Below, one piece after another: positions 10,765 to 47,894 of a stretch of 53,924 bases of DNA. The notes under the pieces are model-generated. The model had not been told where the DNA came from. It did no database searches and saw only the letters and a list, made by a program, of their open reading frames with translations. The translations under genes were made by a program, and so were the position numbers. Within the stretch, counting starts at the first letter, position 1; each line of letters begins with the position of its first letter. Source of the stretch: an uncultured Chthonomonas sp. (GTDB taxonomy: Bacteria; Armatimonadota; Chthonomonadetes; Chthonomonadales; Chthonomonadaceae); NCBI GenBank assembly GCA_903919615.1, contig CAIXIX010000325.1, forward strand, positions 1 to 53,924, in the 5' to 3' direction.

Positions 10765-11559
10765 CTACCCATACTGGATCGCGCGCATGCTCAGGGAGCC
10801 GAGGTCGAAGCCGGTGACGGGGAAGGAGACCGTGTCTTCCTCGGTGGCTGCGCCAACGGTGTAGAGCAGCGGCAAATAGTGGTCTGGCGTGGGATGCGAT
10901 GTTCGAAACTCTGGTTTCGACGCCAGCTGAACCAGAAACTCGCTATCGTGCTGAAGAGCAGCACGGGCCACATCGGCATCAAATTGCGCTGCCCAAGCCG
11001 GAGGTGGAGCATCGGGCAATCCAAAATGGCTTATTGCATCGGGAAGATTGTGTGTTACGTTGCCGCTACCGAGGATCATAATACTTTCGTCGCGAAGATC
11101 AGCGATCGCGCGGCCAAGCTCAAGGTGCTGCGCGGCGGATAGCCTCTGATCGATGCTCAGTTGCAGCACCGGCACGTCTGCCGTGGGCCGAAGGAACTTC
11201 ATCACCGTCCAGGTGCCATGATCCAGCCCCCAGCTTAGAGTTACCTGCGCGCCATACTTTGCAAGCTGACTGCTAAGTGTCGATGCCAGCTCAGCCGAGC
11301 CTGGCGCGCTATACTGCGCCTGAAACAGCTCGCGAGGGAAGCCGCCAAAGTCATGGATTGTCTCCGGCCGATCGTTGCCGGTTAGATATACTCCCGGGCC
11401 ATACCAATGCGCTGAGATGCAAAGATAGGCTGCCGGCGTTGGCAGTGTTCCTCCAAGCGCCTCAAACGCTCTGCTCCATCTGTTATCTTCGATGGCATTC
11501 ATGGGATTGCCGTGGCCGACGAAAAGGGAAGGCATTCTCTTTATTGTTGCCGATTGCAT
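10765..11559 (-). CDS. ygiD: YgiD-type extradiol ring-cleavage dioxygenase (4,5-DOPA dioxygenase family)
   Basis: The 264-residue protein matches the LigB/YgiD family in length and motif order. SLFVGHGNP near the start supplies the first metal-binding histidine (H16). CISAHWYGPG gives the second, WGLDHGTW a conserved central histidine, LGSGNVTHNL a conserved loop, and SHPTPDHYLPLLY the C-terminal catalytic block. Members bind one divalent metal and open catechol rings such as DOPA; the in vivo substrate in bacteria is uncertain. The ATG at 11559 has a GAGAGA site. The gene follows the YceI gene on the same strand, 65 bases apart with a hairpin between, so both are probably co-transcribed and under the divergent MarR regulator. 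Confidence 0.9.
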   Translation of the reverse strand: MQSATIKRMPSLFVGHGNPMNAIEDNRWSRAFEALGGTLPTPAAYLCISAHWYGPGVYLTGNDRPETIHDFGGFPRELFQAQYSAPGSAELASTLSSQLAKYGAQVTLSWGLDHGTWTVMKFLRPTADVPVLQLSIDQRLSAAQHLELGRAIADLRDESIMILGSGNVTHNLPDAISHFGLPDAPPPAWAAQFDADVARAALQHDSEFLVQLASKPEFRTSHPTPDHYLPLLYTVGAATEEDTVSFPVTGFDLGSLSMRAIQYG

Positions 11560-11574
11560 CGCTGTTCTCTCTAC

Positions 11575-11608
11575 TTGCCCTGGTTGCGGCTGCGCCGAGC
11601 CAGGGCAA
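11575..11608 (-). other. Intercistronic hairpin between the YceI gene and ygiD
   Basis: TTGCCCTGG at 11575-11583 pairs with CCAGGGCAA at 11600-11608, and a CGGC/GCCG pair extends the stem inside. Neither strand has a T run behind it, so it is more likely a processing or attenuation stem than a full terminator. Confidence 0.45.
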
Positions 11609-11624
11609 CAATTAACTTAATACA

Positions 11625-12251
11625 TTATTTCGCGGGTGTCGCTTCCAGGTTAATCTCGATATCAACATCGTCGCTAACGGCAAGACCGCCTTTATCGAGC
11701 TTCATGTTCCATTTTACGCCATAGTCCTGTCGATTGATGCGAACGTTCGATTGCAGACCTAACCGGGTCTGTCCGAATGCATCCTTAACCGGTCCGGAAA
11801 GAGTGAACGGCAGGTCGAGCTTCTTAGTAATTCCGTGCAGAGTGAAATCGCCATGCGCAACATATTTGCCGGCGCCAACTTTCGAGATGGAGCGACTCTT
11901 GTAGCTTATGGTTGGATACTTTGTCGCATCGAAGAAGTCAGCAGATTTTAGGTGTGCGTCTCGCTGTGGCTCGTTCGTATCGATGCTCGCGACCTGAATT
12001 GTGAAATCGACGGTTGAACTCTCGATGTCCTTTCCTGCAGCGTGAATAGAGCCCGAAACTTTGTTAAATCTGCCATGTACGGTGCTCACTACCATGTGGC
12101 GGACGGAGAAGCTGATGCCGGTGTGCGACAGGTCAATGGTCCAATCACCTTTCACGGGAGCGGCAGATTGCGCAAACGCAGTTGATGAGACAGAAGACAG
12201 TGCAACGGCACCGGCAAGAGCAATGCTGCTTAAGAGCGTTCGAATTTTCAT
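11625..12251 (-). CDS. Periplasmic YceI family protein (lipocalin-like)
   Basis: The 208-residue protein has a signal peptide (MKIRTLLSSIALAGAVALSS, cleavage near AFAQ) followed by a complete YceI domain. The family pattern is clear: WTIDLSHTGISFSVRHMVVSTVHGRF at the start, then TVDFTIQVASIDT, RDAHLKSADFFDATKYPTI, GDFTLHGITKKLDLPF and the closing strand with VDIEINLEA. YceI proteins form an eight-stranded barrel that binds long isoprenoid lipids; the role in the cell is often stress related. ATG 12251 is chosen over TTG 12263 because GGAG lies seven bases before it. A MarR gene is divergent from it. Confidence 0.92.
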   Translation of the reverse strand: MKIRTLLSSIALAGAVALSSVSSTAFAQSAAPVKGDWTIDLSHTGISFSVRHMVVSTVHGRFNKVSGSIHAAGKDIESSTVDFTIQVASIDTNEPQRDAHLKSADFFDATKYPTISYKSRSISKVGAGKYVAHGDFTLHGITKKLDLPFTLSGPVKDAFGQTRLGLQSNVRINRQDYGVKWNMKLDKGGLAVSDDVDIEINLEATPAK

Positions 12252-42902: not shown

Positions 42903-43415
42903 ATGAAAAAGAGCTCATGGTGCATCCTGTTTGCATGCATCGCACTCGCGGGTCTGTTAGGGTTCGCGTATGTTCAATCTGAACGCAAACCTGCAGAAGT
43001 CAGCACGGTGATGGTCACATCAATGCTGGATTATATGAAATCCGCAGTTGAGCACAAGAATGTGCACAAATTGATGGAGTATGTAGATCAAGCGCAAGAT
43101 ACGCGAATCTCACACCTGAATAACGATCAACTGCGCATTTTGCTCTCTCGCAGCTTCAATCAATCGGAAAAGCTTGATGCCAACTATTCTAACGTGGACG
43201 TCCGTCATCGGGGAGACGACGCAACTGCTGAATTTGATCTGCTTGTGTCGCATCACATGGGGGCTGGAGACGCGGAAGACTACAAAGGACATATTACTCT
43301 GCATTTGCGTATTGTCCCGATTGCGCATCTACTTGGCCTGTACCACACGCATGAGTGGCGAATTTTTAAGGCTGATACAGACGGACCGGACCTGGCGGGG
43401 TACGGCGACTATTAG
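42903..43415 (+). CDS. Membrane-anchored or secreted hypothetical protein (NTF2/SnoaL-like style)
   Basis: The 170-residue protein has an N-terminal hydrophobic segment (SSWCILFACIALAGLLGFAYV) acting as signal anchor. The rest is about 140 residues in a pattern of one long helix and curved strands (MLDYMKSAVEHKNVHKLMEYVD, then ATAEFDLLVSHHMGAG, ITLHLRIVPIAHLLGLYHTHEWRIFKADT) that recalls NTF2/SnoaL-like small domains, which often bind small molecules. That is only a style match. GGAGG five bases before the ATG strongly supports the start. It is divergent from the second sigma operon and may be one of its targets. Confidence 0.8.
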   Translation: MKKSSWCILFACIALAGLLGFAYVQSERKPAEVSTVMVTSMLDYMKSAVEHKNVHKLMEYVDQAQDTRISHLNNDQLRILLSRSFNQSEKLDANYSNVDVRHRGDDATAEFDLLVSHHMGAGDAEDYKGHITLHLRIVPIAHLLGLYHTHEWRIFKADTDGPDLAGYGDY

Positions 43416-44533: not shown

Positions 44534-44664
44534 AAAGAGGCCGGTTGCTGTCACTTTGATTGCCTGCAACACGGCGTCGGGTAGAATTGCTTTATAGCCT
44601 CGCTAATTACGGTGGCTCGGGCAATATCGAAAGCGTCTGTTTGTTCTCCGACTGGAGGCTGCAG

Positions 44665-47253
44665 GTGATCGAAGCAACGCTCTGGCAACTACTCGTCGGC
44701 AGTACCGTTGATGGTCTGTACCGACTTACGTCTTGGGTTGGATCTGGTGTGCACGGAGCAGTGTATACATCTGATCCACTTTTTGGCGACTCATCACATC
44801 GTAGAATTGCGATCAAGCTAACAGAAATTGATGCGTTGAGATTTGCCGATCGAATCGAAGCGTTGACTTCGTTTGTAGGCCTCAATCATCCCTCTTTGCT
44901 GCGCTCGTACACGCCAGGCAGATGCGAGCTTCATGCGAAACAATTCCTGTACCTCCCGTCCGAATTAGCCGATGAAACGCTAGGCACTCGACTCTATTCC
45001 GGCCCGCTTACGGATGACGAAATTCGCGATGCCGGAATCTGTATTGCCTCCGCGCTCGTTTACCTCCACTCTCAGCCACAGCCGATCGTACATGCGAATA
45101 TCAAGCCCACGAATGTCATGCACCTCGGAGGACGATGGAAACTCGGCGACTATTCTGAGATGTACCCTGTTCCGCCGAACGGGGGAATGCGAACACGCAA
45201 TGCACCAGCATCACCTCAGTTTGCGGCTCCGGAGTGCTTTGATGGATGTATGGCGCCTGCGCAAGATATGTGGGCGCTTGGGGTGCTTTTGCATGTAGCC
45301 GCAACGGGATATCTCCCATTCTCTGGTGCGTCGACATCCGATTTAGTTCGTTCTATCTGTACCGAGCCACCGATTCTCGATAACGTAAATAACGATGGAT
45401 TACGGGATGTCATCGCTGCGTGTCTTGAGAATGATCCTACGGTACGCTTGAGTGCAGAGCGAGCATTGGAGGCGCTGGAGATGCTGGATACGGGCTCCAG
45501 CACCTGGGAGCACGCTGTGATGCCAGAGCCTGTTCGCCCTCAGCGTAATGGAGTTAAGAGCGCTCCGGCGAATAACCCGGTATCCGATGTTGCAACAGAA
45601 CATGAGCCCGATGCGGATTATCTGATAGTATCTGCGACAGGCCAAGGAGATTGTGCCGAACTGTTCGAAGCGATTCAGCGTGCCCGAGACAATGCAACGA
45701 TCATTGTCCAGCCTGGTATCTATTCAGGACCATTGCGAATCAAGAGACCGGTAACGATTCAAGCTCAGGGCGAGACCAGTGATTGCCTTGTGAGCTCTGT
45801 GGGCAGTCCTGCGGTCCAGGTTGAGGCCGCTGGAGTTTCGATTGTTGGCATTACGTGCCTGAGTCGGCCAGATTCGCAGGGTTCAAAGCATCCCGCGATC
45901 GAAATACTGGCGGGAGACCTGGTGGTAGATAATTGCATTTTTACCTGTACCTCTATGGCGGGGATCCATTTGGGCGCAGGTATTGCAGAGGTATCAATGA
46001 CCGGCTGCACAGTACGAGATTGCAGGTCTGACGGGGTCGTCCTCGACTCGGGAGCCTCGTTACTTTTTGTGAGCGGTACCGTTGCCAACAACTCTGGTGC
46101 AGGCATTCGATTGCATTCGGGATCGGCTGCTACGGTACAGGAATGCAACGTATGCGGTTGTGGCGAGGCTGGCATCGTAGCGGAGACGGCCTCTGCAGTC
46201 AGGATTCTGAACTGCTCAGTATTTGAGCAAACAGGCACAGGTGTAGCTGTCGGAGATGGAGCAGAAGTTGAGATCGCCGGTTGCGCCATCTATAGCAATC
46301 AGCAATCAGGAGTTACTATCCGCGGAAAATGCAGAGCGGCGATCTCCGATACTGAGGTCTGTTCAAACATTCTTGCCGGAGTTGCTATTTCCGGTGTGGC
46401 TGTGGTGGAACTGACAGGATGCAGGCTGCATGACGGTCGCTCGAACGGAATCTCGGTAATTGATGCGAGTACCTGTATTTTGCAGGAGTGCGAAATCGAC
46501 AGAAATGGCTTCTCGGGCATCAAAGCATCGCGTGGGTGCACTCTTGAGTTACGACGTTGTGCGCTGCATTCCGGTCGGCGGAATGCGGCAACCATTCATG
46601 ACGGAGCGGATGCTACCTTCGAAGACTGTGATATCTATGGCAACAGCCATCCGGCAATTGTAATTGACGAGGGCGCTTCTGCGAGCCTTGTGGGAACCTC
46701 GATCCGGCAATGCGTGGAGGTTGGGATCCTTTGCAGCGGTGATCTGTTGGCACAGCAGTGTACATTCAGCGAGTCGTACAAACCAGGTGTAGAAGCTGTA
46801 AATGGGGGTGTTGTAAAGCTCATCGATTGTGAATACGCCGGTTATGATCAGCCGGCCGTGATGATCCGCTCTGCTTCTGAAGCTGTCGTGGAACGCTGCC
46901 ACATAATGAACAACAACCTACCTGGTATTGTTGTGGGTGAATCCAGCAAGGCTATTCTTACGGAATGCACCATTGAATCAGGCGCCCAGATGGGCGTCGT
47001 CTTCTGGGATCATGCCCAGGGCATTCTTGAGCGGTGCAATATCCTGAACAATCAAATGGATGGCGTGCACGTTATGAACGAATCAAATGTTGAGTTGACG
47101 CAGAGCACGATTTATGACAATAGAGGCTTCGGCATCCATGTGACTGGAGTTTCAGGCGGTTCTATCACAGATTGTGAGTTGAGAGGGAATGGAGCGGGTT
47201 CGGCGTGGATAGAGCAAGGGTGCTCGGTTGCCAGTAACGACAATCTCACATAA
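44665..47253 (+). CDS. Protein-kinase-like domain fused to a long right-handed beta-helix (probable pseudokinase)
   Basis: The 862-residue protein starts at GTG 44665, supported by GGAGG six bases upstream; 35 in-frame codons before it lack a site. Residues about 15-280 form a Ser/Thr-kinase fold: glycine loop VGSGVHGAVY (26-34), the lysine in IAIK (K51), APE (188-190) and DMWALG (201-206). The catalytic loop reads HANIKPTN instead of HRDIKPxN, so the catalytic aspartate is Asn145, and DFG is DYS (162-164). That predicts weak or no phosphotransfer. From about 330 to the end follow some 20 short CASH/beta-helix rungs (for example SGVTIRGKCRAAISDTEV). No membrane helix was found. A receiver-domain gene follows. 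Confidence 0.9.
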   Translation: MIEATLWQLLVGSTVDGLYRLTSWVGSGVHGAVYTSDPLFGDSSHRRIAIKLTEIDALRFADRIEALTSFVGLNHPSLLRSYTPGRCELHAKQFLYLPSELADETLGTRLYSGPLTDDEIRDAGICIASALVYLHSQPQPIVHANIKPTNVMHLGGRWKLGDYSEMYPVPPNGGMRTRNAPASPQFAAPECFDGCMAPAQDMWALGVLLHVAATGYLPFSGASTSDLVRSICTEPPILDNVNNDGLRDVIAACLENDPTVRLSAERALEALEMLDTGSSTWEHAVMPEPVRPQRNGVKSAPANNPVSDVATEHEPDADYLIVSATGQGDCAELFEAIQRARDNATIIVQPGIYSGPLRIKRPVTIQAQGETSDCLVSSVGSPAVQVEAAGVSIVGITCLSRPDSQGSKHPAIEILAGDLVVDNCIFTCTSMAGIHLGAGIAEVSMTGCTVRDCRSDGVVLDSGASLLFVSGTVANNSGAGIRLHSGSAATVQECNVCGCGEAGIVAETASAVRILNCSVFEQTGTGVAVGDGAEVEIAGCAIYSNQQSGVTIRGKCRAAISDTEVCSNILAGVAISGVAVVELTGCRLHDGRSNGISVIDASTCILQECEIDRNGFSGIKASRGCTLELRRCALHSGRRNAATIHDGADATFEDCDIYGNSHPAIVIDEGASASLVGTSIRQCVEVGILCSGDLLAQQCTFSESYKPGVEAVNGGVVKLIDCEYAGYDQPAVMIRSASEAVVERCHIMNNNLPGIVVGESSKAILTECTIESGAQMGVVFWDHAQGILERCNILNNQMDGVHVMNESNVELTQSTIYDNRGFGIHVTGVSGGSITDCELRGNGAGSAWIEQGCSVASNDNLT

Positions 47254-47278
47254 AAAGATTCATTTTTGAGAATCTTTT
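47253..47278 (+). terminator. AT-rich hairpin after the kinase-like gene
   Basis: AAAAGATTC and GAATCTTTT form a nine-base-pair stem directly at the stop codon, ending in TTTT. The stem is AT rich, so it may be a partial terminator before the receiver gene. Confidence 0.4.
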
Positions 47279-47357
47279 GTATTTATGTATTTTTCGCTTG
47301 AGCGGACGCATCTTGATATTGAATAACGATTTTGTTCGCTCAAATGAGGATGTTGGG

Positions 47358-47894
47358 ATGGGATTTGCTTTACGAAGTTTAACTGGTGATTATGCATCGA
47401 GGCTCAGCCCTATAGCCTATGATGTGACTGCGCCTGCACGGAGCCTCCCGCAGACCCATGGCTTGCGAATTGTCCACACGCAGCCCGAGCGATCTTCTCA
47501 TGAAATTCCTTGCGGTCGGGGTACCATCCTCGCGGTCGATGATGAATCAATGGTTCGCCAACTTATGGTGGCCGCGCTTCGAAAACAGGGTTACGACGTA
47601 ATTGAAGCCAGTAATGGCACAGAAGCTCTCCGGATAATCGAAGAGCAGGGCGATCGAATTGACCTGATGGTTTCCGATGTTGTAATGCCACGAATTGGTG
47701 GACAGGAGCTTGCGCGAAGGCTTCATGAAAGCAAACCTAACGCCGCGGTATTATTGGTGACGGGATGCTCCGAGCAGATGGTTACAGGTACGAGCGCCTC
47801 TTCAGATGCGCACCCACTGCTGCATAAGCCATTTCGCAGCAGCGATTTTGTTGACCGCGTTAATAGCCTGCTTGAAAATCGCGCAGCGCTTTAG
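47358..47894 (+). CDS. Stand-alone response regulator receiver protein
   Basis: The 178-residue protein has a 55-residue N-terminal linker and one receiver domain. The acidic pocket is D61-D62, the phosphorylated aspartate is D107 in VSDVVMP, and T135 and K157 in VLLVTG and HKPF complete the conserved set. No output domain is present, so it acts by protein contact, like CheY or hybrid-kinase receivers. ATG 47358 has GAGG and GGG upstream; earlier in-frame codons lack a site. It follows the kinase-like beta-helix gene by 104 bases on the same strand. No histidine kinase gene is visible in this window. Confidence 0.9.
   Translation: MGFALRSLTGDYASRLSPIAYDVTAPARSLPQTHGLRIVHTQPERSSHEIPCGRGTILAVDDESMVRQLMVAALRKQGYDVIEASNGTEALRIIEEQGDRIDLMVSDVVMPRIGGQELARRLHESKPNAAVLLVTGCSEQMVTGTSASSDAHPLLHKPFRSSDFVDRVNSLLENRAAL

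Follow-up and report, generated by a model that had tools for sequence, protein, structure and literature searches.

Bacterial pseudokinases have been little studied. By one sequence definition, a pseudokinase lacks at least one of three residues—the beta3 Lys, the HRD Asp, and the DFG Asp (PMC12599244). ActPs2, a bacterial Ser/Thr pseudokinase in which the HRD Asp has become Asn, is altered further: Arg takes the place of the beta3 Lys, DFG usually contains a deletion, there are long insertions, and a membrane region is common (PMC12599244). In the case of human PSKH2, the switch is lineage specific: most mammals have HRD, and only primates have HRN (PMC9988210). The HRN pseudokinase domains of HER3 and JAK2 can retain very low activity (cited in PMC9988210). 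Neither pseudokinases in bacteria nor HRD-to-HRN switches in single lineages are new, and fusions of kinases to beta-helices recur in the phylum studied here; our search of the literature on kinase–beta-helix fusions found no relevant account.

Here, we have concentrated on one such fusion, encoded in a stretch of 53,924 nucleotides from an uncultured Chthonomonas sp. (the whole stretch is what we call the window), and on one question: what became of its kinase? Like PSKH2, it shows a switch of the HRD-to-HRN kind in one lineage with the ATP-binding residues kept; PSKH2 differs in belonging to a CAMK-related group, in having no beta-helix, and in having chiefly one Asp changed. Like ActPs2, it is a bacterial Ser/Thr pseudokinase with Asn for the HRD Asp, but it keeps both the beta3 Lys and the DFG Asp and so falls outside that family.

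The fusion protein and its predicted fold

The fusion lies on the forward strand at 44665 to 47253 and is 862 aa long if it begins at a GTG, which agrees with the N termini of two orthologues described below; an alternative TTG at 44560 would make it 897 aa. The frame has no internal stop from either start, and its codon positions 1 and 2 are conserved far above position 3. Pfam finds Pkinase (PF00069; E = 1.9e-20, 73.8 bits against a curated cut-off of 31.7) and Beta_helix (PF13229; E = 5e-73, 244 bits against a cut-off of 25.9), and the AlphaFold2 model of the full fusion has a mean pLDDT of 89. The kinase domain (residues 12–272, 44698–45480, forward strand), placed by the Pfam match and by structure, is modeled as a fold that matches PknB and other kinases with Z scores of about 28–30. 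A low-confidence and probably disordered linker (residues 277–313, 45493–45603, forward strand; pLDDT below 50) follows, and then the right-handed beta-helix (residues 325–858, 45637–47238, forward strand), seen both by Pfam and in the models. With an intact ORF, Pfam matches, and predicted folds in agreement, the fusion proposed in the sequence-only reading is real.

That reading also counted about 20 rungs, and the many-rung helix stands with a slightly higher count of about 22: 18 from residue 441 to about 854, built on a 23-residue repeat, and about four less regular ones at the N-terminal end. Modeled alone, the helix has a mean pLDDT of 95 and is regular, without long inserted loops. We take it to recall the CASH domain of FBXO11; FBXO11 is not among the PDB matches listed for the helix, an absence that excludes nothing. 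To the beta-helix enzymes that are polysaccharide lyases and epimerases the likeness is one of fold only, at roughly 10–16% identity. Conservation in the helix is concentrated at one Cys, one Gly, and one adjacent position of the repeat, and because it lies mainly at these three positions, a binding site cannot be named. We looked for a conserved ladder of exposed residues and found none, with the register of the later rungs set by eye. Nowhere is the fusion as hydrophobic as a membrane segment would be, in keeping with a cytoplasmic protein. The host genome (G000) also holds a second beta-helix protein (G000:C387:1393-2049, L138), which lacks a kinase and begins with what looks like a signal peptide, and in a wider contig collection a one-sequence query with the window protein, an insensitive search, gave as its sole match a helix protein from Hydrogenedentota that has no kinase domain.

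Catalytic motifs, relatives, and rates

The kinase retains much of what one would want for holding a nucleotide. The glycine loop (VGSGVHGAVY, 44737–44766) is kept, with G28 and G31, as is Lys51 of the VAIK motif (44815–44817), the beta3 Lys; K147, N150, D162, E190, D201, and R261 are also present, and the residues of the fold (D201, W203, G206, G215, P218, E190, and R261) are intact. The losses lie elsewhere, all on the same forward strand. At the HRD position the protein reads HAN (residues 143–145, 45091–45099, codons CAT GCG AAT), such that the Arg is Ala144 and the catalytic Asp is Asn145; at the DFG position it reads DYS (162–164, 45148–45156, codons GAC TAT TCT), with the Mg-binding Asp kept and the Gly replaced by Ser164. 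Both motifs had been called degenerate from the sequence alone, with the catalytic Asp lost, and this is right for the HRD Asp, which is the only one of the two gone, D162 still being there. The damage extends beyond that earlier list, however, to the HRD Arg, to the alphaC Glu, which is Ala66 (44860–44862) where 15 of the 16 other aligned sequences have Glu and one has Asp, and to the P+1 loop, where GT has become AS (182–183, 45208–45213). With Asn145 for the HRD Asp, the domain lacks one of the three residues of a catalytically complete Hanks-type kinase (beta3 Lys, HRD Asp, and DFG Asp) and is a pseudokinase by the definition cited above (PMC12599244). Across 65 conserved columns, it departs at 13 (including E66, R144, D145, G164, G182, T183, and Y186); several of these changes are conservative, such as V to I, and the nonconservative ones fall mostly in the catalytic apparatus.

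Could this nonetheless still be a kinase, if a weak one? Asn145 or an acidic residue that has moved might stand in for the HRD Asp and give low but real activity. In favor of such an idea are the ligands of ATP and Mg (K51, N150, and D162), Glu65 right beside the lost alphaC Glu, and the traces of activity that HER3 and JAK2 keep in their HRN domains (cited in PMC9988210). Against it, more than the base has been swapped: the HRD Arg and Asp, the DFG Gly, the alphaC Glu, and the P+1 Thr have all become unlike those of nearly all relatives. We rank weak residual activity as the main rival to our own reading and consider it unlikely. With the beta3 Lys and the DFG Asp both present, ATP binding is plausible and may survive, and it is made less than certain by the changes to the alphaC Glu and the DFG Gly. 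On balance, judging from these residues, phosphotransfer has probably been lost and ATP binding probably retained.

When were these residues lost? In 291 genomes of the phylum, we found two full-length orthologues, one in the same genus (G001, 38% identity) and one in the same family (G010, about 30%), and both share the architecture of the fusion end to end. In contrast to the window protein, they are canonical and look active: in the same alignment columns as HAN and DYS, G001 has HRDIKPDN and DFG and G010 has HRDVKPGN and DFG. Since both orthologues are ordinary in this respect, the motif loss is not a trait of the family, as the first reading had allowed one to suppose, and the pseudokinase state looks confined to the lineage of the window. 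More widely, the HRD Asp is present in 16 of the 18 kinase domains that score at least 220 bits against a profile of the subfamily, the exceptions being the window and G022, which has HGN for HRD and Arg for the beta3 Lys and departs at 22 of the 65 conserved columns (the other 15 rows depart at 1 to 12). The two exceptions do not group on the tree, where G022 forms a very long row of uncertain position, and so their losses of the HRD Asp look like separate events. The G022 kinase (L044, G022:C163, 7608–8438, reverse strand) reads HGNLTPSS and is fused to a sulfatase-modifying-factor-like domain. The host genome itself holds two further degenerate kinase-like proteins (G000:C209, L087, and G000:C182, L090), one with GFG for DFG and the other with HGG and GYY, which is in line with a review's statement that the share of pseudokinases differs widely between bacteria.

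On the kinase tree, the window and G001 are sisters (support 100/99) with very different tips, 1.02 and 0.37. With G010 as third taxon, maximum likelihood gives kinase branches of 0.65 for the window and 0.43 for G001 and helix branches of 0.72 and 0.69. Tajima-type relative-rate tests, uncorrected and on three sequences, agree: the kinase has counts of 35:18 (p = 0.03), the helix 75:59 (p = 0.19), and the C-lobe, one of five regions tried, 26:9 (p = 0.006, uncorrected). By these comparisons, the kinase part is accelerated on the window's branch, and the helix has kept pace. One might see in this a kinase domain simply decaying under relaxed selection, with any function left only in the helix, or none at all. 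The long kinase tip beside a helix at its usual pace is what such decay would look like, and G022, the other member of the subfamily to have lost the HRD Asp, has the longest tip of the tree, 1.88. Yet the frame runs through 862 codons without a stop or a frameshift, the structural residues are kept, and the nonconservative changes cluster in the catalytic apparatus. Progressive decay is thus, for us, the second rival, and a rather improbable one, although selection for a new state is hard to separate firmly from relaxation when the degenerate form occurs in one genome only.

Kinases of other kinds in the phylum carry helices too, as had been surmised of fusions elsewhere. In G061 and G205, a kinase is followed by a related CASH-like helix, as in the window, but the kinases belong by score to a different subfamily, with HRD and DFG intact in G061 and DFG intact in the partial G205. 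Within the window's own subfamily, the other C-terminal parts, assigned by eye, are sulfatase-modifying-like, Sel1-like, WD40-like, S1-like, or membrane regions. One 20 kb stretch (L033, G020:C40) has three kinases of the subfamily with Sel1-like and sulfatase-modifying-like C termini and looks like a local duplication, and in another genome (L058, G077:C73), a subfamily kinase adjoins an ORF whose sequence is FHA-like and PP2C-like, which suggests a kinase–phosphatase module.

Among PADLOC models, mad6 scores best for the kinase domain (93 bits for the window, 153 for G001, and 186 for G010), and PD-T4-6 is also among the best. The match to these phage-defense kinases is essentially limited to the kinase part, and against NCBIfam MADS6, the fusion scores 73 bits where the cut-off is 460; we have therefore rejected phage-defense membership through Mad6. 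Of the four neighboring genes scanned, three match no PADLOC model, and one, the receiver gene discussed below, has a weak and unspecific match to PD-T4-6; the locus lies among ordinary genes. We would read the mad6 match as a lead to the subfamily, which gives no evidence for a role in defense.

The receiver gene next door

Downstream on the same strand (47277–47894) is a lone receiver protein, whose Response_reg match (E = 1.3e-22; residues 84–195 of 205, 47526–47861) is accompanied by no other Pfam family; a receiver without an output domain is just what had been described. Judged by eye, the likelier start is an ATG at 47358, which would leave a gap of about 100 bases after the fusion. An A+T-rich hairpin over the stop codon of the fusion (47248–47288, forward strand; −9.6 kcal/mol, z = −2.3) is a possible weak terminator that a scan for terminators did not pick up; promoter-like matches turn up around here no more often than in shuffled sequence.

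Do the pseudokinase and the receiver make a two-gene signaling unit? The receiver is the next gene on the same strand, and it keeps, by inspection, the acidic pair, the phospho-acceptor Asp, the Thr, and the Lys. Against the unit stand the orthologous loci, the likely gap with its hairpin, and the receiver's own relatives. The neighborhood in G001 is similar to that of the window (a sigma/anti-sigma pair, a 188-aa protein, a Gfo/Idh oxidoreductase, the fusion, and a phosphoesterase, with an aldo-keto reductase-like gene and two others in between), and the receiver is absent from it. In G010, whose contig is only 4.1 kb, no receiver adjoins the fusion, and an S41-peptidase-like fragment is convergent with it (gene types by eye). 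Within the host genome, what the receiver most resembles is mainly the C-terminal receiver domains of hybrid histidine kinases (55% over 121 aa at best), and its best relative in G001 reaches 38%. We have rejected an operon of fusion and receiver, the pairing being conserved in neither G001 nor G010, and also a truncated hybrid kinase, of which no histidine-kinase remnant is found upstream in any frame. A two-gene unit is, in our view, very improbable; the tie between the two genes is adjacency in one genome, nothing more, and the receiver is not supported as the proposed partner.

The flanks shared with G001 include a protein of 170–188 aa. At 42903–43415 (forward strand) in the window and at 11289–11855 (reverse strand) in L031, this short protein has an N-terminal hydrophobic segment and no family above threshold, and it is conserved beside the sigma/anti-sigma pair in the two genomes of this genus.

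From kinase to scaffold?

The gene goes back to a Ser/Thr kinase of the ordinary Hanks type that was already joined to a beta-helix, a state which the proteins of G001 and G010 still show. In the lineage of the window, the kinase has lost the catalytic base and parts of the activation machinery, retaining the fold and most of the residues that bind Mg-ATP. The pseudokinase head might then bind ATP, its former substrate or partner, or both, without phosphorylation, and the 22-rung helix could offer a long docking surface. In other words, we think with moderate confidence that a former Ser/Thr kinase is now probably an ATP-bound cytoplasmic scaffold or competitor; the step to either role is a guess, as is the identity of any partner. 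The cytoplasmic scaffold with a nonphosphorylating kinase fold that the first reading imagined thus survives in part, in the probable loss of phosphotransfer, the lack of a membrane segment, and a helix that is scaffold-like, and it does so without its receiver.

A bolder version would have an active fusion become an ATP-sensing scaffold within one genus, the head acting as a switch, gated by ATP, that alters which molecules the helix binds; we hold this to be possible, if doubtful. No new kind of system is revealed by this fusion. What it does provide, because an intact sister protein exists in the same genus in a similar gene neighborhood, is a clean pair for comparing a kinase–helix protein with and without catalysis. 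Were the ATP-gated switch to prove true, the conversion to a pseudokinase would have been caught beside its active sister, with the function of the helix kept.
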